From positions 1 to 64,000 of the forward strand of contig VGXR01000002.1 in assembly GCA_016873255.1 (NCBI GenBank): a stretch of 64,000 bases of DNA, given 5' to 3'. Below are positions 11,060 to 48,956 of this stretch, piece after piece. Under the pieces are notes generated by a model. The model was not told the DNA's origin, ran no database searches, and saw only the letters and a list, made by a program, of their open reading frames with translations. This DNA is from Planctomycetota bacterium (lineage in GTDB: Bacteria > Planctomycetota > Phycisphaerae > Phycisphaerales > SM1A02). Made by a program: the position numbers and the translations under genes. How positions within the stretch are numbered: position 1 is the stretch's first letter; each line of letters starts with the position of its first letter.

Positions 11060-12322
11060 ATGGCCGGTGAAGACCTCCAATTCCGCGCGCGTGCCGTCGA
11101 GTCGGCCTCCAGCCCGGAAGCGGTCAACCGAGTGGCCCCCATCACGACCCCGCGCCTCTGGGTGCTGGTCGGCGCGGCCGGGTGCGTGGTCGCCGCGTTC
11201 GTCGCCTGGGGACTGCTCGGCACCGTGCCGCTGACCGTGCGCGGCATGGGCATCCTCATCGAGGGCACGATGGTGGTCGCCGCGGAGGCGCCGGTCGACG
11301 GCCGCATCGCCGAGGTGCGGGTGAAGGCCGGCGACACCGTCGCCCAGGGCGAGGTCATCGCCGTCGTGGCCAACCCCGCGCTCGAGGTGCAGCACCTCGA
11401 TGCGCGCAACGCCGTGCAGCGCCTGCGCGACCAGGATGCCGCCATGTCCGCCGCCGAGGACCGCGCCAACGCCGCTGCGGCCGCGGCGCTCGAGCTCCGC
11501 GAGCGCGAATGCGCCCGACGCATCGAGCAGGCGTCGGCGACAGCCGCGGAGTTCGCCAAGGCCATCGAGACCAAGCGCGACCTCGTCCGTCAGGGGCTGC
11601 TCGCGGAGGCGGACCTCCTCGGCAGCGTCAACACGCAGCTCGAGATCGAGCGCGCGCTCTCCGAGGCCCGCAACGAGCAGCGAAAGGTCGCCAGCGACCG
11701 TGCCGAAATGGCCACCCGCGTCGCGCAGGAACGGCAGCGCCGCAGCAACGGTGTCGCCGACGCCGAGGCCGCCGAGCGCCAGTGCGAGGCCCGGCTGGCA
11801 GCGGAGCGCCACGTGGTGGCGCCGCGCCCGGGCAAGGTCGTACAGCTGCAGCGCTCCGCCGGCGACCTCGTGCGACGCGGCGGAACCGTGGCAGTGGTGT
11901 CGGATGCGGGGGACGGCAGGCTTCGCTGCTACTCGTTCTTCCCGCTCGGCGAGGGCAAGCGCGTGGCTGCCGCCATGGGCGCGCGCGTTGAACCGTCGGT
12001 GGCCGACCGCGAGCGCTTCGGCATCGTCCGCGCCTCGGTGCGCGACGTCGAGCCGGTGGTCGGCACCCGCGAGTCGCTCCTGCGCATCATCAACAGCGCG
12101 GAGTTCGCGCAGGACGTGGAGCGCCGCTACGGCGGGCTCGTGTCGGCGGTGATCGACCTGGAGCAGGACGCTTCCACCCCGACCGGCCTCCGCTGGACCG
12201 GCGGCGCCGGCTACCCGCAGCCGCTGTCGGCGGGCACGGTGTGCGAGGTGGACGTGATCGCCGAGGAGGTCCGCCCAATCTCGCTCCTCCTTCCCTGGAT
12301 CAAGCAGGTCCTCGGTGGCTGA
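11060..12322 (+). CDS. HlyD-like adaptor of an NHLM-type peptide exporter
   Basis: 420 residues. A short cytoplasmic N-terminus precedes one membrane anchor (about 30-55, LWVLVGAAGCVVAAFVAWGL), then a lipoyl half-motif (APVDGRIAEVRVKAGDTVAQG), a long coiled coil (about 110-240) and the second lipoyl half (VVAPRPGKVVQLQRSAGDLV). This is the layout of the 'NHLM bacteriocin system secretion protein' that bridges the inner-membrane ABC transporter and the outer membrane. Its end overlaps the C39 transporter start by 8 nt. A TACGAT box lies 15 nt before the ATG, so a very short leader is likely. It is the first gene of the four-gene exporter operon. Confidence 0.87.
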   Translation: MAGEDLQFRARAVESASSPEAVNRVAPITTPRLWVLVGAAGCVVAAFVAWGLLGTVPLTVRGMGILIEGTMVVAAEAPVDGRIAEVRVKAGDTVAQGEVIAVVANPALEVQHLDARNAVQRLRDQDAAMSAAEDRANAAAAAALELRERECARRIEQASATAAEFAKAIETKRDLVRQGLLAEADLLGSVNTQLEIERALSEARNEQRKVASDRAEMATRVAQERQRRSNGVADAEAAERQCEARLAAERHVVAPRPGKVVQLQRSAGDLVRRGGTVAVVSDAGDGRLRCYSFFPLGEGKRVAAAMGARVEPSVADRERFGIVRASVRDVEPVVGTRESLLRIINSAEFAQDVERRYGGLVSAVIDLEQDASTPTGLRWTGGAGYPQPLSAGTVCEVDVIAEEVRPISLLLPWIKQVLGG

Positions 12323-14522
12323 GGCGGCGCAGGAAGCACCCGTCGCGCGCGGGACGCCCTTCGAGCCCCGGGGGCGCCGGCTGGTGGATGCGCCCGTCAT
12401 ACTGCAGATGGACGCCGTGGAGTGCTTTGCCGCCTGCCTGGTCTCGGTGCTCGCGCACCACGGCCGCCACCTCGCCCTCGAGGAGGCGCGTCGCATGTGC
12501 GGCGTCAGCCGCGACGGCAGCAACGCGCTGCAGGTGACCGCGGCGGCTGAGTCGCTCGGCATGTCGTGCGACGGCTACTCCGTGGAAAGCGAGGAGCTGC
12601 TGGAGCTCAAGCTGCCCGGCATCCTCTTCTGGGGGTTCGACCACTTCGTCGTCCTCGAGGGCTGGCGCGGCGGTCGCTGGCGGATCATGGACCCCGCGGT
12701 CGGCCGGCGCTGGGTGTCGCCCGAGGAGTTCGACCGCAAGTTCACCGGCGTGGTGCTCGAGCTGCAGCCGACGGATGCGTTCGAGCGCGGTGGCCGGCCC
12801 CACGGAGTGTGGGGCCTCGTGCGCGAGCGGATGCGCGGCTCGTGGGGCGCCGTGGCGATCGCCGCCGCATGCGGCCTGCTCCTCGCGGTGCCGGCATTCG
12901 CGCTCCCGGCGCTCGGCGCCGTCTACGTTGATCGCGTGCTCCTGGAGGGTGCCGGCCGCTGGATCGTGCCGATGGTTGCCATCGCGGCGGCATGCCTCGG
13001 GGTCACGGTGGCACTCGGCTGGATCCAGCAGGCAGTCCTGGCGCGTCTCGAGCAGCGCCTGGCCGTGACCGGATCCGCGGACTTCGCCGCGCACGTCCTG
13101 CGCCTTCCCGTCGACTTCTTCTCGCACCGCTACCCCGGCGAGATCGTGCAGCGCCTGGCCGGGTTCGAGATGCTGGCCGACACGCTGGCCGCGAAGGTGG
13201 CGCCGGCCGCCGTCGGCCTCCTCACTTCGCTCGTCTTCCTCGCGGCGATGGTCGCCATCGACGGACACCTCGCGCTGGTCGCGCTCTTCGTCGTCGCGGC
13301 CATCGCCGGCATCATGGTCCTCTCGGGCCGCGCGCTCGTGGAGCACTCGCGCACGCTGGAGAGGGACTCCGGCCTCGGCGCCGGCACGCTCTCGGCGGGG
13401 CTTTCCGCCATCGAGACCGTCAAGGGATCGGGCCGGGAGAACGACCTCTTCGCGCGGATCGCGGATGCCAATGCGCGCATCGCCTCAAGCCAGCAGGCGC
13501 TCGAGGGCCTTGCCGCGTGGACCACCGCGCTTCCGGAGCTGCTGTCGACGCTGCTCGTGTCCGCCGTGGTGCTCTCGTACGGCGGCTGGCAGGTGATGCA
13601 GGGGCACATGACGCTCGGGTCGCTCCTGGCGTTCCAGGCCATCCTCGTGGGCTTCATGGGTCCCGTCCTCGACCTCGCCGCCCTCGGGCAGGACGTCCAG
13701 GGACTTCGCGCGGCGATGACCCGCATCGACGACGTCATCCGCCATCCGCTCGATCCGCTGGCGCTGCCGTCGCCGGAAGTGCCGAAGCTTGCCGCGGCCG
13801 CGGACACGCTCGAGTTCCGCGACGTCGCGTTCGGCTACAGCGAGAGCAGCGACCCGCTGATCAGCGACTTCACGCTCGCGATCGGCGCGGGCCGCCGCGT
13901 GGCGCTCGTGGGACTCACCGGCAGCGGCAAGAGCACCGTGGCCAAGCTCGCGTGCGGCCTCTGCTTGCCGTGGTCGGGCGAGGTGCTCGTGGACGGCCGT
14001 CCGCTCGCCGACATCCCGCGTCACGAGCGCGTGTCGCTCATCGCGACCGTCGGGCAGTCGCCGTTCCTCGTGGAGGCGAGCCTCCGCGAGAACCTCTCGC
14101 TCTGGGACCCCGGCGTCACCGACGACGCCATGCGCGAGGCTGCGAACGATGCCGGCCTTGCCGCGCTCATGGAGTCGCGGGGCGGGCTCGGCATGCGCAT
14201 CGCCGAGGGCGGGTCAAACCTCTCCGGCGGCGAGGCGCAGCGGATCGAGATCGCGCGCGCCCTCTCGCGCAGGCCGTCGATCCTGGTGCTCGACGAGGCC
14301 ACGTCCTCGCTCGACGCCACCACCGAGAGCCAGCTCGACCGTGCCATCCGGCGCCGGGGCTGCACGTGCCTGGTGGTGGCGCACCGGCTGAGCACCATCC
14401 GCGATGCCGACGAGATCGTGGTGCTCGATCGGGGCGCGATCGCCGAGCGCGGGTCGCACGAGGAGCTCATGCGCCTCGACGGCGCCTATGCCGCATTCGT
14501 GCGCGGGGGAGGGCAGGGGTGA
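12315..14522 (+). CDS. Peptidase C39-ABC exporter (leader peptidase, permease, ATPase)
   Basis: 735 residues in three parts. An N-terminal C39 peptidase (about 25-150) carries Gln31, Cys37 in VECFAACL, His110 in GFDHFVVLEGW and Asp126 in IMDPAVG, so the catalytic triad is intact; Gly after the Cys is replaced by Phe. A six-helix permease follows, then an ATPase with GLTGSGKST, LSGGEAQR, ILVLDEATSSLD and the AHRLST His switch. Such proteins cut double-glycine leaders and export the core. The start is GTG 12315. With no modification genes beside it, the substrate should be an unmodified peptide; the ORF at 18938-19078 is the obvious candidate. Confidence 0.92.
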   Translation: MAEAAQEAPVARGTPFEPRGRRLVDAPVILQMDAVECFAACLVSVLAHHGRHLALEEARRMCGVSRDGSNALQVTAAAESLGMSCDGYSVESEELLELKLPGILFWGFDHFVVLEGWRGGRWRIMDPAVGRRWVSPEEFDRKFTGVVLELQPTDAFERGGRPHGVWGLVRERMRGSWGAVAIAAACGLLLAVPAFALPALGAVYVDRVLLEGAGRWIVPMVAIAAACLGVTVALGWIQQAVLARLEQRLAVTGSADFAAHVLRLPVDFFSHRYPGEIVQRLAGFEMLADTLAAKVAPAAVGLLTSLVFLAAMVAIDGHLALVALFVVAAIAGIMVLSGRALVEHSRTLERDSGLGAGTLSAGLSAIETVKGSGRENDLFARIADANARIASSQQALEGLAAWTTALPELLSTLLVSAVVLSYGGWQVMQGHMTLGSLLAFQAILVGFMGPVLDLAALGQDVQGLRAAMTRIDDVIRHPLDPLALPSPEVPKLAAAADTLEFRDVAFGYSESSDPLISDFTLAIGAGRRVALVGLTGSGKSTVAKLACGLCLPWSGEVLVDGRPLADIPRHERVSLIATVGQSPFLVEASLRENLSLWDPGVTDDAMREAANDAGLAALMESRGGLGMRIAEGGSNLSGGEAQRIEIARALSRRPSILVLDEATSSLDATTESQLDRAIRRRGCTCLVVAHRLSTIRDADEIVVLDRGAIAERGSHEELMRLDGAYAAFVRGGGQG

Positions 14523-17182
14523 AGCTTCCCGCGCCCGCATCCACCTTCGCCGCCGCCGGTGCGTCCGTGCGCCGCGTCGACGGCCGGCACCACGTCGACC
14601 TCTCGCTGGCGCAGCCCGCGTTCGCGGTCGCCTCGGGCATGGTGAGCGTCCTCGTGGCGCGTCGCCGCGCCGACGGCACGGCGGGCCGCCGCGCCTACCT
14701 CGGCACCGTGGCTCCCGGCGGCGTGGTGCCCATGCTCGCGGCGGAGCTTGCCGGAAGCCCCTTCACCGTGGTCGCCGTCCCGGACGGCCGAGCGCTCGTG
14801 GTCGATGCGCCCGCGGGCGTCCCTGCGTGCGACGAGGCCGTCGCCGAGGGCCGCTTCAGGTTCGCGCGCGCCATGATCCCGGCCGAGGCACGCGTATCGG
14901 CATCCACCGAGCCCGAGGCGGTGGCCGCGCTCATCGCGCGTGCCGCGGAGCTCGCCGCGCTCGACGAGGCATTCGTCGCTGCGGCCGTGTCCGCGCGCTC
15001 CGGCGCACCCGCGCGCGCGCAGGCACGCAGCCTGCGCGTCATCGGATCCGTCTTCGGGCTGCAGGACGAGCTGCTCAACGTCGATCCGTCGCTGCCGCCC
15101 CTCCTCCGCGCGTGCCGTCACGTGGCGGTCGAGGCAGGCGTCCCGCTCGCGGCCATCCCACGGCGCATCCCGGCCGACCCGCTCCTTTCTCCGACCGAGG
15201 CCTTCGCCCACGCGGCACGCATCGGTTGCCGGCGCATCGAGCTGCCGGACCGGTGGTGGCGGGGTGACTTCGGCCCCATCCTCGGCCAGGCCGGGGATGC
15301 TCCCGTGGCGCTGGTCCCGGCCGGCCGCGGCGGCTACCGCGCATTCACCTACGAACCCGGCGTGGCCCCGCGCGGTCGCACCGTGGACCGGGCATTCGCC
15401 GCAACCCTGGCACCCGACGCGGTGGCATTCGCGGCGCCGCTGCCGGCATCCGTGACGGGCGTGCGCTCGCTTGCCGCCTTCGTCCTCGGCGGCAGCGCGC
15501 CCGACCTCTGGATCGCGGGCGCGGTCTCCCTGGCCGGCAGCTTCCTCAACCTTGCCGTGCCGTTCGCCACGGGGCTCCTCGTGAGCCGCCTCATCCCGGC
15601 CGGGAACGGCGGATCGCTTCTCTTCCTCGGCCTTGCGCTCGGTTCGGCCATCCTGGCGGTGGCGGCCTGCGACCTCGTGACGCGCTTCCTGCTCCTGCGC
15701 GTGGAGACGCGTGCGACGGTCCGGGGATCATCCGCCGTGATCCTCCGGACGCTGCAGCTGCCGATCGCCTTCTTCCGGCGCAACCCGGTGGGCGACCTCG
15801 CCGAGCGCCTCGGCGTCATCGAGCAGGTGCAGCGGCGCATCACCAGCACCATGGTCGTGTCCGTGGTGGGGGGCGCCTTCTCGCTCACGTACCTGGGCCT
15901 CATGGCGGCCATCGATCCCCTTGCGGCGTTCGCTTCCGCGCTGGCGTTCCTCGCGATCTTCGCGGTCACCGCGTTCGTCGCGCGGCAGCAGGCCCGGCTC
16001 GCCGCCGATGCCGCCGAGCGCAGCGGCCGGCTCTCCGGCTTCGCGCTGCAGCTCCTCGACGGCATCGACCGGATCCGGACCACGGGCACCGAGGAGCACG
16101 CGCTGCTCCAGTGGCTTCAGCGCTACCGTCCCGAGCGACGGGCCATGTACCGCGCGTCCATCGCCGCGGCCCGCCTGCGCGTCCTCGGGCTGGCGGTTCC
16201 CTTCGCCGCCGCGGGCTTCCTCTGGTGGCGTTTCGCCGCGCTTCCGGGGTCCGAGGAAGTCAAGGTCGCGGCGTTCATGGCGTTCAACGCCGCCTTCAGC
16301 GCGGCGCTGGCGGCCATCGCGCAGCTCGGCACGGCGGTCGGCGACATCTCGGAGGCCATCCCGCCCCTCGACCGGCTCTCGTCCATCCTCCAGGAGCGGC
16401 CGGAATCGGACCCCGGCGCGGAGACCCCTGGCGAGCTCTCCGGCGCCATCGCGCTGCAGGACGTCCGCTTCGCGTATCCCGGCTCGGCGGGCGAGGTGGT
16501 GCGGGGCGTCAGCCTCGAGGCCTCGCCCGGCGACTTCGTCGCGATCGTCGGCGCATCGGGGAGCGGCAAGTCCACGCTCGCGCAGCTCATCCTCGGGCTG
16601 CTTCGGCCCACGGCGGGCAAGGTGCTCTTCGACGGACGCGACCTCGGCAAGCTCGACCTGCCTTCCGTGCGGAGGCAGCTCGGCGTGGTCGGGCAGCACG
16701 CGCGCGTGATGCCCGGCACCATGCTCGAGAACATCGTGGGTGCCACGCTCCTGACGCAGGATGACGCGTGGGAGGCCGCGGAGGCCGCGGGGCTCGCGGA
16801 CGACATCCGCGACATGCCCATGCGGATGCACACGTTCGTCAACGAGCACACGCTCAGCGGCGGGCAGCTGCAGAAGCTCCTCATCGCGCGCGCCCTGGTG
16901 ACGCGCCCGGCCATCTTCCTCTTCGACGAGGCCACGAGCGCCCTCGACGAGGTCTCGCAGGCGCACGTGTCGGCGGCGCTCGCGGAGCGCGCGGTCACAC
17001 GCATCGTGATCGCGCACCGTCTCAGCACCGTCCGGCTCGCCGACCGCATCCACGTGCTCTCGGCCGGCGAGGTCGTGCAGGCCGGCACGTTCGACGAGCT
17101 CGCCGCGGTGGAGGGGCCGTTCCGCGAGCTCGTGCGCCGGCAGCTCGTCGACGCACCTGCCGTGGCGGGAGGTGCCGCATGA
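14519..17182 (+). CDS. NHLM-type ABC transporter subunit with N-terminal extra domain
   Basis: 887 residues. The first ~300 residues form a domain without catalytic motifs, as in the partner 'NHLM bacteriocin system ABC transporter, ATP-binding protein'. A six-helix permease begins near residue 320 (LWIAGAVSLAGSFLNLAVPF), followed by an ATPase with GASGSGKST, LSGGQLQK, IFLFDEATSALDE and an AHRLST switch. It lacks a C39 domain, so it probably pairs with the preceding protein as a heterodimer. It is joined to both neighbours by 4-nt overlaps (GTGA, ATGA). Confidence 0.88.
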   Translation: MKLPAPASTFAAAGASVRRVDGRHHVDLSLAQPAFAVASGMVSVLVARRRADGTAGRRAYLGTVAPGGVVPMLAAELAGSPFTVVAVPDGRALVVDAPAGVPACDEAVAEGRFRFARAMIPAEARVSASTEPEAVAALIARAAELAALDEAFVAAAVSARSGAPARAQARSLRVIGSVFGLQDELLNVDPSLPPLLRACRHVAVEAGVPLAAIPRRIPADPLLSPTEAFAHAARIGCRRIELPDRWWRGDFGPILGQAGDAPVALVPAGRGGYRAFTYEPGVAPRGRTVDRAFAATLAPDAVAFAAPLPASVTGVRSLAAFVLGGSAPDLWIAGAVSLAGSFLNLAVPFATGLLVSRLIPAGNGGSLLFLGLALGSAILAVAACDLVTRFLLLRVETRATVRGSSAVILRTLQLPIAFFRRNPVGDLAERLGVIEQVQRRITSTMVVSVVGGAFSLTYLGLMAAIDPLAAFASALAFLAIFAVTAFVARQQARLAADAAERSGRLSGFALQLLDGIDRIRTTGTEEHALLQWLQRYRPERRAMYRASIAAARLRVLGLAVPFAAAGFLWWRFAALPGSEEVKVAAFMAFNAAFSAALAAIAQLGTAVGDISEAIPPLDRLSSILQERPESDPGAETPGELSGAIALQDVRFAYPGSAGEVVRGVSLEASPGDFVAIVGASGSGKSTLAQLILGLLRPTAGKVLFDGRDLGKLDLPSVRRQLGVVGQHARVMPGTMLENIVGATLLTQDDAWEAAEAAGLADDIRDMPMRMHTFVNEHTLSGGQLQKLLIARALVTRPAIFLFDEATSALDEVSQAHVSAALAERAVTRIVIAHRLSTVRLADRIHVLSAGEVVQAGTFDELAAVEGPFRELVRRQLVDAPAVAGGAA

Positions 17183-18963
17183 CCCGGCATGCCACTCGCG
17201 CCGCTCTGCCTGCGGCCCTCGTCGCCGCACTGGCCGCCGGCTGCGAGTCTCCTTACCAGGACCGCGGCATCCTCTCGAAGGACGTCGCCGACCGCATCTC
17301 CCGCGTCGACGGCACGGACCTCTCCGCGCTGGGGGAGGCGGGTCCGCTTCCGCCGTCGTCCGCCACGCCGCCCTCCCCGGAGGAACTGGCAGGCCTCGAG
17401 CCCGGGCAGCGCCGCACGGAGCTTGCGCTTCCGGACGTCCGTGCCTCGGTTCTCGAGAACAACCTCGGCATCAAGGTGGTGCGCATCGACCCTGCCATCG
17501 CCAGCGAGCGCGTCCGCAAGGAGCGTGCCCGGTTCGAGTGGACCTTCGGCCTGATCGCCGACGGCGGGCGCGACGTGAACTTCGAGCCCCCGCTGCAGGC
17601 CGAGCTCTGGAACGCCGAGGTGCGGCCCAACCTCAACGTGCCGCTCGCCGACGGCGGCCAGCTCGATGTCGACTGGCGCCTGCTGTACTTCGACAACCAG
17701 CTCAATTCGCTCGACCCCAACGAGGGCGTCGGCTACCAGAGCGTGCCCCGCGTGACGCTCACGCAGCCGATCCTGCGGGGCGGCGGCAGGCTCGTTAACG
17801 AGTCCGGCATCCTGCTCGCGTCATTCGGGCAGCGGAGGGTGGAGATCCGCACGCGCCTGATGGTGCAGCAGCTCCTCGTGGAGGCGGAGCGCTCGTACTG
17901 GCGTGCGTTCGGCGCATCGCGCGCGTTCGAGATCTCGCTCGAGAGCTACCGGCGTGCCGTGGAGCAGGTGGCAGTCGCCGAGCGGCTGGCCGCCGCGCGC
18001 ATGGCGGCCGCCACCGAGGTCATCAAGGCCAAGTACCTCGCCGTCAGCCAGGTCGACGACGTGATCGCCGCGAGCGAGCAGCTGCGCGCGCGCTCCCGCC
18101 AGCTCAAGCAGGCGATGAACCGCCCGGACCTGCCGCTCGACGACAGTGCCGTCGTCGGCTTCGGCACCGGGCCCGAACTGGTGCAGTACCGCTTTGCGCC
18201 GCAGACGGTTCTGGACGTGGCGCTGCGCCGACGGCCGGAGCTCCTGGAGGCGGAACTTGCCGTCGCCGAGGGTGCGCTGGGCATCGAGGTTGCAAAGAAC
18301 GGGCTGATGCCCCGGCTCGATGCCTTCGGCACGGCGGGGCCGGTGGGCTTCGGCACCAACCTCGGCGATGCCATCGCAGGAAGCGGGCCCGACGCCGCGA
18401 TGACCATGGCATTCAACGCGGGGGTTCGCCTGCAGGTGCCGCTGGGCAACGAGGCCGCCAAGGCCGACCTGCAGGCTGCGCTCTACCAGCGCCTCCGTGA
18501 GCTCGCCACCAGCCAGGATCGCCGACTCACCATCACCCGCGAGGTGCACGATGCCGTGTCGCGCACCCGCACCGGGTGGCAGGCGGTCGTGGCCACCCGG
18601 CAGGCGGTCGACCTGGCGGCGCGCGCGTACGACGGCGTGCGCACGCTCTACCAGAAGCGCGCGGCCACCATCACCGATCTCACGCAGTCGCTGCTCCAGC
18701 TGGCCGACGCCCAGCGGTCGGAGGCGACCGCCGTGGTGGGCTACCAGCTTGCGTTGCTCGACCTGTCGGACGCGGCCGGCTTGGTCCCGGGCCGGGCTGG
18801 GCTGTCGATCGATTCGGACATCCGTCTGCCGTCCGCCGAGGACGGCGACCCCGGGGCGGGCACCGAGTCGTTCCTGGAGGTCCCTCCGCTCCTCGAGGCG
18901 GAGCGCGGCGACCTCGGCCGTACGCCACGGGCGACGGTCAGCGCCGCTTCGAACCGAGGTTGA
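17179..18963 (+). CDS. TolC-like outer membrane efflux lipoprotein
   Basis: 594 residues. The lipoprotein signal ends at AALAAGCES (Cys about 19). Two efflux repeats with long amphipathic helices follow: ASVLENNLGIKVVRIDPAIA and the mirrored VLDVALRRRPELLEAELAVA are the TolC-type openings, with two beta segments each (VRPNLNVPLADGGQLDVDW; VRLQVPLGNEAAKADLQ). The product forms the outer-membrane tunnel that completes this exporter. It is the last operon gene, overlapping the preceding ATG by 4 nt. Its last 26 bp run antisense to the end of the precursor peptide gene, so the two transcripts converge. Confidence 0.88.
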   Translation: MTRHATRAALPAALVAALAAGCESPYQDRGILSKDVADRISRVDGTDLSALGEAGPLPPSSATPPSPEELAGLEPGQRRTELALPDVRASVLENNLGIKVVRIDPAIASERVRKERARFEWTFGLIADGGRDVNFEPPLQAELWNAEVRPNLNVPLADGGQLDVDWRLLYFDNQLNSLDPNEGVGYQSVPRVTLTQPILRGGGRLVNESGILLASFGQRRVEIRTRLMVQQLLVEAERSYWRAFGASRAFEISLESYRRAVEQVAVAERLAAARMAAATEVIKAKYLAVSQVDDVIAASEQLRARSRQLKQAMNRPDLPLDDSAVVGFGTGPELVQYRFAPQTVLDVALRRRPELLEAELAVAEGALGIEVAKNGLMPRLDAFGTAGPVGFGTNLGDAIAGSGPDAAMTMAFNAGVRLQVPLGNEAAKADLQAALYQRLRELATSQDRRLTITREVHDAVSRTRTGWQAVVATRQAVDLAARAYDGVRTLYQKRAATITDLTQSLLQLADAQRSEATAVVGYQLALLDLSDAAGLVPGRAGLSIDSDIRLPSAEDGDPGAGTESFLEVPPLLEAERGDLGRTPRATVSAASNRG

Positions 18964-19078
18964 CGCCCTTGGACGCCGTCCGGCCGCCGCTGGCCTTGGC
19001 CAAGCTGCTGCGCCCCTTGGCGGCGCCGCCCTTCACGCTGGCGAGGTCCTTGGCATTGAGCTTCTTGTCGTTGGTCAT
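18938..19078 (-). CDS. Double-glycine precursor peptide, predicted substrate of the adjacent exporter
   Basis: A 46-residue ORF. The first 18 residues, MTNDKKLNAKDLASVKGG, match the C39 leader consensus at every key position counted back from the cut: Leu -12, Asp -8, Leu -7, Val -4, Gly -2, Gly -1. The predicted 28-residue core has eight Lys/Arg, no acidic residue, no Cys and no aromatic residue, and is rich in Gly, Ser and Ala. It contains a second Gly-Gly pair (LAKASGG) with a shortened copy of the pattern. An AAAGG ribosome binding site is 6 nt before the ATG, and a promoter lies at 19121-19150. It faces the exporter operon and overlaps its last gene. Function (bacteriocin, signal or structural peptide) is not visible. 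The longer frame that contains it lacks any leader signal. Confidence 0.75.
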   Translation of the reverse strand: MTNDKKLNAKDLASVKGGAAKGRSSLAKASGGRTASKGVNLGSKRR

Positions 19079-19120
19079 CGTCAGCCTTTCTGGGGGCTCC
19101 TTGCGGGGCCGCCGATGGCT

Positions 19121-19175: not shown

Positions 19176-19217
19176 TCCAAAAGAACAAACCCCTTGGAGG
19201 CGTGTAACTCCAAGGGG
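19176..19217 (-). terminator. Hairpin with T-rich tail, leftward
   Basis: CCCCTTGGAG (19190-19199) and CTCCAAGGGG (19208-19217) form a perfect 10-bp stem with an 8-nt loop. Read leftward, it is followed by a T-rich stretch (GTTTGTTCTTTTGG). It lies just upstream of the peptide promoter, so it would insulate the peptide gene from leftward transcripts, or end an unseen one. Confidence 0.5.
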
Positions 19218-19317
19218 CAGTGTTTCTCCGCGGCCCTGCCAGGCGCGCGAAGGGAGTGGCTTGCAGAACCCGTCGGACACAACTCGGGGCGGCAGGTGCG
19301 GGTTCGCCTCTATAAAC

Positions 19318-19556
19318 GCAGTTCCCAAGGCGGTGCCATCACGGGATCGGCGCGGTCTGCGAGAAGAACACGCTTTCCCGGCATGCGCCGTGATCCCGGC
19401 GGAGCGTGTTTCTCGCCTCCATGGGCGGAGTGGGGTTGGCCGAGAGGTCAATAACCAATCCGCAACCCGCCCTTTTCAGCAGCTTGCCCCGTATGTGGGT
19501 CGAGGCTTGCTGAGGCCCGGAACGGTGCCTTTGCGCCATTCCGGGCCAATTTTTTG
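19318..19556 (+). ncRNA. Candidate structured RNA in gene-free region
   Basis: The ~540 bp between the peptide promoter and the sigma factor holds no gene on either strand. A TATAAA box (19311-19316) without a clear -35 precedes a stretch with strong pairing. Arms 19342-19353 and 19385-19398 pair over 12 bp with a 2-nt bulge; arms 19359-19374 and 19403-19416 pair over 14 bp with a 2-nt bulge. Their order a-b-a'-b' makes them a pseudoknot or mutually exclusive. A third element pairs 19423-19428 with 19467-19472 around an inner stem. The stretch ends in a strong intrinsic terminator. It matches no RNA class I recognise (not tmRNA, SRP or RNase P RNA). It could also be the leader of the downstream sigma factor, but the terminator argues against that. 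Confidence 0.4.
19514..19556 (+). terminator. Intrinsic terminator
   Basis: GGCCCGGAA (19514-19522) pairs with TTCCGGGCC (19539-19547), with further pairing in the loop, followed by AATTTTTT. This is a classic rightward terminator. No protein gene precedes it on this strand since 18963, so it either ends long exporter read-through or the RNA candidate. Confidence 0.75.
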
Positions 19557-19755
19557 ACCGGATTTCCGGGATTGCGCTGGGGCATTCACCGGACTTTGCG
19601 CGACTTTCGCTTGACCTCGGAGAAATCGGGGGCACAGTGGCCCCGTGGCCGTCTGCGCGGCCGCACACCGACAGGAGAGAAGGACCTAGGGGCGTGGACG
19701 TTCGTTCTCGAGCGCGTGGCTCGCTGACGTGCGTATTGATTGGAGTGGTTGCCCA

Positions 19756-20328
19756 ATGAGGTCCCTGCCTGTCTCGCCGCCAGCCGGCGAGCCTTCCCTG
19801 CCTGAACTGTTCGAGGCCATCTACGGCCGGCTCAAGGAGCTGTCCTCGATGTTCATGCGATCGCAGCCGATGGGCCACACGCTCCAGCCCACGGCCGTGG
19901 TCAACGAGGCATTCATCAAGCTGGCCGAGCGCGACGCGGGGTCCTTCGTGAGCGAGGAGCACTTCTTCGCCACCGCGGCCACGGTGCTTCGCAGCGTGCT
20001 GGTGGACCATGCGCGCCGGCGCAGCAGCAAGAAGCGAGGCGCGGGCAAGCGCGGCGCGTCGATGGGCATCTTTGATTTTGATCCGGCCGATCGCTCGTCG
20101 GATGTCACCGGCCTGCTCGAACTCGAGGACGCCCTGCAGGCCCTGGCCGAGATCGATGCGCGCGCGGCACACGTGGCCGAACTGCGCATCTACGGCGCGG
20201 TTTCCCTCGATCACTTGGCTCGGCTCCTCGGCACCAGCGTGCCGACCGTGGAGCGCGACTGGCGCTTCGCGCGTGCCTTCCTCGAGAAGCAGTACGGCGT
20301 CACGGCGAAGGGTCGCAGGTCGTCATGA
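19756..20328 (+). CDS. ECF sigma factor, planctomycete/acidobacterial type
   Basis: 190 residues. Region 2 is seen in ELFEAIYGRLKELSSMFM and LQPTAVVNEAFIKLAE, typical of the 'Sig-70, TIGR02999' group. HFFATAATVLRSVLVDHARR follows, and region 4 ends in a helix-turn-helix (AVSLDHLARLLGTSVPTVERDWRFARAFL). It directs RNA polymerase to a special promoter set. ATG 19756 is preferred with GGAG 12 nt upstream; GTG 19729 is an alternative. The stop overlaps the kinase start (ATGA), a coupling common in planctomycetes where a kinase probably controls the sigma factor. Confidence 0.9.
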   Translation: MRSLPVSPPAGEPSLPELFEAIYGRLKELSSMFMRSQPMGHTLQPTAVVNEAFIKLAERDAGSFVSEEHFFATAATVLRSVLVDHARRRSSKKRGAGKRGASMGIFDFDPADRSSDVTGLLELEDALQALAEIDARAAHVAELRIYGAVSLDHLARLLGTSVPTVERDWRFARAFLEKQYGVTAKGRRSS

Positions 20329-21380
20329 GCATCCCTGTGGCTGATCGCTGGGTCACGGTCCGGCGCCTCTTCGAGGCCGCCGTGGATCTTCCGCAGCACC
20401 AGCGCCTTGCCTTCCTGGACTCCGCATGCGCCGACGAGGGGACGCGCTGCGAGGTCCTTGGACTCCTGGCTGCCGATGAGTCGGCGGTCGACCTGCCCGT
20501 CGACCGGGATCCCGCAGCAACCAACGAAGGGGTGGCTGAGCGGTTCCCGGAAGTGCTGGGCTTCAGAATCGACCGTCGGCTCGGGGCAGGGGGCACCGGC
20601 CGCGTGTACGACGCCACCTGCCGCGAGAACGGCGCGCGCGTCGCGCTGAAGGTGATGAACGTCGGGGCCAACGGCCAGGCCCTGCAGCGGTTCCGCCAGG
20701 AGAGCCGCATCCTCGCGCGCCTGCGCCACTCCGGCATCGTTCAGCTGCACGAGAGCGGGCACACCGTGGACGGGCACTTCTACCTGGCGATGGACTACGT
20801 CGATGGCGCGACCATCGACCGCTGGTGCCGGGACCATGCCGCCGACGACCGCCGCAAGGCCGAGCTCTGCATCGAGGTGCTCGCGGCCCTCTCGCACGCG
20901 CACGCCGCAGGCGTGGTGCACCGCGACATCAAGCCCCACAACATCCTCGTGGACTCCTCCGGGCGCGTGCTGCTCGTGGACTTCGGCGTGGCGCGCCTGC
21001 ACCGCGACGACGGCAACCGCACCGGCTTCCGCACCGAGACCGGCAACATCGTCGGCACGTTCGCCTACATGAGCCCCGAGCAGGCTGACGGCAAGGCCAG
21101 CCGCATCGGGCCGTGCACCGACGTCTACCAGGTGGCGCTGGTGCTGTTCGAGCTGCTCACCGGACGGCTTCCCTACGACATCGAGGACCGTGGCGCGATG
21201 GCGCTCCTGAAGGCCGTGCTGTTCGAGCGCCGGGTGCGCCTCTCCGAGGCGCGCGAGGATCTCGCCGGCCCGCTCGACGAGGCGCTGCACGGGGCGCTCG
21301 AAATCGACCCGTCGAAGCGGCCGCAGAGCGCCGCGGAGTTCGCCGACCTGCTGTCTCGGGCGATCGCCGGACTGGCCTGA
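20325..21380 (+). CDS. Cytoplasmic Hanks-type serine/threonine kinase
   Basis: 351 residues. The first ~75 residues are an acidic helical domain often found before planctomycete kinases. The kinase domain is complete: GAGGTGRVY loop, Lys109 in VALKV, HRDIKPHN with Asp201, DFG with Asp219, and MSPEQADG as substrate-binding segment. There is no membrane helix, no PASTA or TPR tail. Overlap with the sigma factor gene suggests phosphorylation of, or co-regulation with, that factor. Confidence 0.92.
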   Translation: MSIPVADRWVTVRRLFEAAVDLPQHQRLAFLDSACADEGTRCEVLGLLAADESAVDLPVDRDPAATNEGVAERFPEVLGFRIDRRLGAGGTGRVYDATCRENGARVALKVMNVGANGQALQRFRQESRILARLRHSGIVQLHESGHTVDGHFYLAMDYVDGATIDRWCRDHAADDRRKAELCIEVLAALSHAHAAGVVHRDIKPHNILVDSSGRVLLVDFGVARLHRDDGNRTGFRTETGNIVGTFAYMSPEQADGKASRIGPCTDVYQVALVLFELLTGRLPYDIEDRGAMALLKAVLFERRVRLSEAREDLAGPLDEALHGALEIDPSKRPQSAAEFADLLSRAIAGLA

Positions 21381-48734: not shown

Positions 48735-48956
48735 TATCAGACGGCTTTGTTCTAGCGCGTGATGGAAGCGCGGCCCCGATTGCGTGTCTCTTGCTGAGCG
48801 ACTTCTCCAGAGAACCTCAAGTTCTCCACAGATTTCGCCGGAGCGGGGACTCGCCGTGTGGTGAGTACCGCAAGGGAAAGGGTCGCCGGTCGGCGGATCC
48901 GACCGCGTGCGCTTGGCGTCTGTGGACGCCGGGCGCCGCTTGCACGGAGCTTCCAG

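Follow-up and report, generated by a model that had tools for sequence, protein, structure and literature searches.

A conserved double-glycine precursor peptide opposite a divergent NHLM-type exporter in Phycisphaerales, a candidate C39 export substrate

The window, which here means the whole 64,000-nucleotide stretch of DNA that was analysed, encodes a 46-aa double-glycine (GG) precursor peptide whose gene is convergent with the operon of a C39 peptidase-ABC exporter. Judged from comparative sequence data, the best explanation of the locus as a whole, with a probability of roughly 70%, is that the peptide is an exported C39 substrate with a signal or matrix role rather than a diversifying bacteriocin. 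The peptide would provide a concrete substrate for an export system of uncultured Planctomycetota, and the family is proposed to range over freshwater and related Phycisphaerales with a divergent NHLM-type exporter. NHLM-type exporters could then serve a short, apparently unmodified and conserved peptide, and not just modified hypervariable cargo. Secreted cargo that leaves by this route would be narrowed to a short list of 20-43-residue peptides, which can be synthesised and tested.

The precursor gene and its relatives

The precursor gene is located on the minus strand at 18938..19078 (stop codon 18938-18940), and its translation is MTNDKKLNAKDLASVKGGAAKGRSSLAKASGGRTASKGVNLGSKRR. The leader (19025-19078) comprises 18 aa with GG at its end, and the core (18941-19024) comprises 28 aa with a net charge of +8. 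The initial annotation had assigned Leu -12, Asp -8, Leu -7, Val -4, and Gly-Gly to the leader, which the translation confirms exactly, and had described the core as strongly cationic and free of Cys, acidic, and aromatic residues, which is also correct. All of the positions in a C39/PCAT leader test (Leu -12, acidic -8, Leu -7, hydrophobic -4, and Gly-Gly) are present in the peptide and are kept in its relatives. The claimed ribosome binding site corresponds to a purine-rich, Shine-Dalgarno-like AGAAAGG at 19085..19091 on the minus strand, 6 nt 5' of the ATG, and AAGGA-type purine runs are found at the equivalent position in most relatives. The gene overlaps the end of the TolC gene, as had been noted, by 26 bp (TolC stop at 18963), and the longer open frame in which it is nested measures 114 aa when counted from TTG. 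The promoter candidate that had been placed near 19114 received no support from a sigma-70 consensus scan.

A search with the peptide revealed orthologues in 12 of the 14 genomes of the host genus (g1), with E-values of 1e-13 to 5e-4 and one outlier at 0.07 that was lifted to 4e-15 by a profile. The two genomes that lack the peptide have a completeness of 64% and 69%. Genome records describe the relatives as lake and pond Phycisphaerales MAGs. The genus alignment keeps a leader of the form MT[ND]x[KR]KL..xxL..xxGG and features a core of the type GLAKASxGRVxPKAVNLGxKKR. The profile search located the peptide in 38 genomes from 4 genera of the family, in single copy, including 18 genomes of g43 (MSPKPANTSKTSKTNTKSVKLSDADLAKVSGGGASRVARNSSAARRSRTPKR and kin), 7 genomes of g18 (MAEAKKPKKLSADDMKKVAGGAKSRSTSTSSVGRTGPRKSTRGR), and one genome of g2 with a 43-residue core. 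The predicted mature cores of the family include AAKAGAKPSGLAKASTGRVAPKAVNLGAKKR and GASRVARNSSAARRSRTPKR, and the best reading of the family is that the released product would be an unmodified polycation of 20-43 residues. Core length and residue order differ strongly between genera, so that a function shared across genera is proposed from composition and position.

Outside the four genera, a search over 400 genomes of the order found no carrier, and the matches in a phylum sample of 392 genomes were noise, borderline, or generic GG leaders whose cores are unrelated. The host genome itself yielded no further relative of the peptide. A second match in genome G009 (C163) was rejected because it is not a GG peptide. 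The profile from the 38 genomes and 4 genera can be used to find more members.

Codon comparisons revealed that both leader and core are under purifying selection. The pooled pN/pS of the 12 g1 species is 0.46 as opposed to 0.99 for the antisense reading, and for the nine closer members of the genus it is 0.31, with an antisense control of 1.04. The corresponding pooled values are 0.30 versus 1.67 in g43 and 0.13 versus 2.25 in g18, and the cores alone give 0.53 in g1, 0.23 in g43, and 0.05 in g18. Most changes between species within the ORF are synonymous when read in the peptide frame, which does not hold for the antisense frame, and the indels that distinguish relatives preserve the reading frame. 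Conservation could also be due to a noncoding RNA or DNA element instead of the peptide, and a strongly conserved noncoding element is indeed located just upstream. This element, however, stops ~100-190 nt short of the ATG and does not behave like the ORF, and the codon evidence and frame-keeping indels refute such an origin, the probability of which is vanishingly small. The GG-leader small-ORF pattern has 1 match in the 64 kb of the window versus a mean of 0.05 over 60 dinucleotide shuffles. A chance ORF is ruled out by the conservation, the codon bias of the changes, and the shuffles; because the pattern is rare in shuffled sequence and the 46-codon ORF is conserved with a coding signature, the ORF is almost certainly a real gene.

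The exporter cassette and its linkage to the peptide

The exporter cassette is encoded on the plus strand and was classified with an NCBIfam scan. It starts with a HlyD-type membrane fusion protein (11060..12322) that scores 209.8 with TIGR03794, above the curated cut-off of 156.2. The C39 peptidase-ABC exporter that follows (ABC1, 12315..14522, with the C39 domain at about 12315-12830) has its best match among NCBIfam models in TIGR03796, with 786 bits and thus under the cut-off of 853. The second ABC permease/ATPase (ABC2, 14519..17182) has no C39 domain and is nearest to TIGR03797, its best match, with 669 bits and again under the cut-off, which is 709. Since only HlyD clears its curated cut-off, the cassette is termed divergent NHLM-type, a classification that the initial annotation had not given. 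It is followed by a TolC-type outer-membrane efflux protein (17179..18963, PF02321) with a lipoprotein-like N-terminus, the gene for which is found beside the cassette in only part of the genus.

The catalytic Cys, His, and Asp motifs of the C39 domain are all present in ABC1, and the gene is the single C39 domain gene of the host genome. The host ABC1 has ECFAACL at the site that is ECGAA in almost every relative, so that Phe replaces Gly after the catalytic Cys in the host species only, a point of caution for the proposed mechanism. C39-ABC proteins of the exporter type are present in 58 of 181 family genomes, and in the ABC1 tree the peptide-bearing exporters form one group with 100/100 support, apart from the other exporters. 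Elsewhere, locus L117 (and perhaps L126) encodes a C39-ABC protein without the catalytic Cys motif, L117 reading VEGPAAAL. This suggests that the C39-like domain is non-cleaving in these proteins, which are second exporter copies in G019 and G191.

The search for the peptide near homologous exporters that the initial annotation had called for was run, and leader and core were found to be conserved in the 38 genomes and 4 genera; its concern that they might be unconserved near related exporters was not borne out. The convergent orientation that it described for the peptide ORF and the C39-ABC operon holds in all 33 loci that lie on one contig (11 from g1, 16 from g43, 5 from g18, and 1 from g2), where the peptide gene is just downstream of ABC2 or TolC. 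The peptide start is ~2.8-3.1 kb past the C39-ABC match, or ~4.6 kb past it with TolC in between. In the remaining five carriers (G012, G074, G083, G159, and G164) the peptide and the exporter are on separate contigs. The exporter subtype itself is present in 41 genomes, and in the three in which the peptide is missing (G011, G082, and G162) the contig stops inside the ABC2 gene. Twenty other exporter loci have no such peptide at that position, and nothing convincing as a GG peptide adjoins the g58 exporters.

The cassette occurs in three unrelated neighbourhoods, of which the exporter and the peptide are the sole common genes. The g1 neighbourhood features a phosphoesterase-like gene, an ECF sigma factor, and a kinase, and the g18 neighbourhood consists of genes unrelated to those of g1 and g43. 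The g43 and g2 neighbourhood contains genes that we take to be ApaG-like, asd-like, and trpS-like. In none of the three contexts does a conserved modification enzyme accompany the cassette, and a scan of genes of at least 80 aa found no immunity gene conserved with it across contexts.

A strongly basic and disordered-looking core would also suit a small intracellular protein that binds ribosomes or nucleic acids, with a GG-like leader that is coincidental and an exporter that is a mere neighbour. The L-x4-L-x4-GG pattern and the exporter linkage, however, are kept across 38 genomes with three different gene contexts, and the peptide is absent where relatives lack this exporter subtype, which makes an intracellular role highly improbable. 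As the linkage indicates, the adjacent NHLM-type exporter instead very probably has the peptide as its dedicated substrate. The fixed site of the peptide gene facing the pump genes in 38 species argues strongly for cleavage and secretion by the pump, and these steps are also made likely by the strict genomic linkage, the intact Cys/His/Asp motifs, and the single C39 gene.

Proposed role and comparison with known precursors

In the proposed mechanism, a leftward transcript of its own would give the 46-aa precursor, and the short KKLxAxDLxxVxGG leader would dock onto ABC1, in its C39 domain. The C39 domain would then cut the precursor after Gly-Gly, and the 28-residue unmodified polycation would leave the cell by way of the ABC pair, HlyD, and TolC. 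Outside the cell it would most plausibly act as a secreted peptide that is conserved and lineage-specific, either as a cell-cell signal or as a surface or matrix peptide that binds polyanions.

A class II unmodified microcin or bacteriocin that kills competitors would use the same kind of route. The leader resembles class II leaders (PF10439, TIGR03949, and bactofencin A), the core is cationic, and the exporter is dedicated; the conservation of the core may be compatible with a bacteriocin as well. Class II bacteriocin models match the leaders weakly but repeatedly and always under their cut-offs (14.8 versus 15.7 for TIGR01847 and 15 versus 21.5 for TIGR03949). The core, however, is under purifying selection within genera, there is one copy per genome and no paralogous array, and the core is nearly without aromatics and has few large hydrophobics, unlike membrane-active bacteriocins. 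Among genes of at least 80 aa, none for immunity accompanies the cassette across contexts, so that self-protection would have to come from an unlinked or unrecognised gene, which could exist. A bacteriocin is therefore a minority possibility, rather unlikely on this evidence. A signal or envelope/matrix function is favoured because the core is conserved, the gene is in single copy, and an immunity or modification gene is lacking from the conserved cassette; taken by itself, a non-bacteriocin role has slightly better than even odds on these comparisons.

The exported peptide might also be processed further, or modified at Ser/Thr by enzymes encoded elsewhere, to give a smaller or modified pheromone-like product. 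Most members have Ser/Thr-rich cores and dibasic or basic C-termini, and modified peptides are the usual NHLM cargo (PMC2887384). Against this, none of the three contexts has a conserved modification enzyme, and the cores have no Cys from which lanthionines or azoles could be formed, so that such processing appears improbable and the unmodified polycation is retained as the predicted product.

The closest comparison in exporter type is with the NHLP/Nif11 precursors (N11P), which are associated with the TIGR03794/03796/03797 export cassette (Haft et al. 2010, PMC2887384). The leaders of these precursors are long, contain an NHase- or Nif11-like domain, and often occur in several copies; the cores are hypervariable, rich in Cys, Ser, and Thr, and adjoined by modification enzymes (PMC2887384). 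The three-gene exporter type (HlyD, C39-ABC, and ABC) and the Gly-Gly cleavage motif are shared with the present system. In contrast, the leaders here are 18-32 aa long without an NHase- or Nif11-like domain, the precursor is in one copy, the core is Cys-free and conserved within genera, no modification enzyme is present, and the gene is convergent with the operon. The Nif11 leader model (TIGR03798) matches neither the peptide nor anything else in the 13 genomes searched, and Nif11-type precursors were looked for elsewhere in the host genome and not found. The NHLP precursor model (TIGR03793) likewise gave no match to the peptide, with its leader of merely 18 aa, in the NCBIfam scan.

The class II GG bacteriocins (TIGR01847, PF10439, and bactofencin A, NF038163) share a short leader pattern and an unmodified cationic core with the peptide, which differs from them in its sub-cut-off scores, the lack of an immunity gene, and a core sequence that is not bacteriocin-like. 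A non-antibiotic precedent is provided by EbfG1-4 of Synechococcus elongatus, four related proteins with 9-10 kDa precursors on one transcript; with PteB, they form a system of C39-exported GG peptides that serve biofilm formation, a function that was shown (PMC4997328). The likeness to EbfG1-4/PteB, small GG-leader peptides with C39-ABC export, is drawn at the level of system type, and the non-antibiotic function that was shown there is proposed here.

The upstream noncoding element and other GG peptides

A conserved noncoding element of 85 nt is located upstream of the peptide gene on the minus strand (19176..19267). It consists of an unpaired, invariant CCACTCCC box, one hairpin, and a terminator-like hairpin with a T-run. 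A DNA search found it once per genome in 12/12 peptide-bearing species of the genus, with 82-95% identity, while its flanks align poorly among the 12 species. Two base pairs have changes on both sides, the fold is more stable than shuffles (z -3.0), and an Rfam scan gave no match. Matches outside the genus score 18-33 bits versus 97-112 bits inside it, and among the 18 that were inspected several resemble ordinary terminators, the box is absent, and ACTCCC occurs in one only. Occurrence beyond the genus was rejected and these matches are regarded as noise, on account of their low scores, the terminator-like look of several, and the missing box. The element might attenuate the peptide transcript or act as a small RNA in its own right.

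A promoter-like motif, TGATGG-N15-TGCGTT, at 19315..19341 on the minus strand faces the RNA element and, beyond it, the peptide gene. The form GATGG-N15-TGCGT is present upstream of the element in 11 of the 12 species, G004 being the one without it. The full motif occurs 73 times in the 14 genus genomes versus 0 times for a reversed control, and it is therefore probably a promoter class of the genus. A second match in the window, at 48760-48785 on the plus strand, has a shorter form that ends in TGCGT.

Divergent from the peptide gene are an ECF sigma factor (19756..20328, plus strand, PF07638, in an open frame from 19729) and, directly after it, a Ser/Thr protein kinase (20325..21380, plus strand); both genes adjoin the cassette in the host genus only. 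The ECF ribosome-binding region (19741-19758, plus strand) reads GGAGTGG, or GGAGTGCC in relatives, and is complementary to part of the CCACTCCC box in 8 of the 11 species checked. This complementarity could be due to chance because Shine-Dalgarno sites contain GGAG. A broader proposal that combines a new polycation family and a lineage-wide signal or matrix role with control, in the host genus, by the upstream RNA as an attenuator or small RNA, perhaps also by the ECF factor and kinase, is tentative, and its chances are judged to be below even.

Other GG leaders were encountered in the course of the searches. In a distant planctomycete family, locus L193 encodes a small GG-leader protein, MTEEKKLSDDELKDVAGGVKTYNTSKSNTSAMKPGDDKDPKRTSKPDGKFTAK, at 1501-1587 on the plus strand, with a similar leader and an unrelated core, and in the phylum sample G507 likewise combines a GG leader with a core that is unrelated. 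Genomes G170 and G202, which account for two of the 20 other exporter loci, carry arrays of MDVKVVENAD...LSDEEL..AAGG peptides upstream of another exporter subtype. Loci L121 and L130 feature, upstream of the exporter, MDVKVVENADNCVHITMPAPPSG..LSDEEL..AAGG arrays with variable cores that are unmatched by the Nif11 model, and these arrays are perhaps a second undescribed family of GG precursors.
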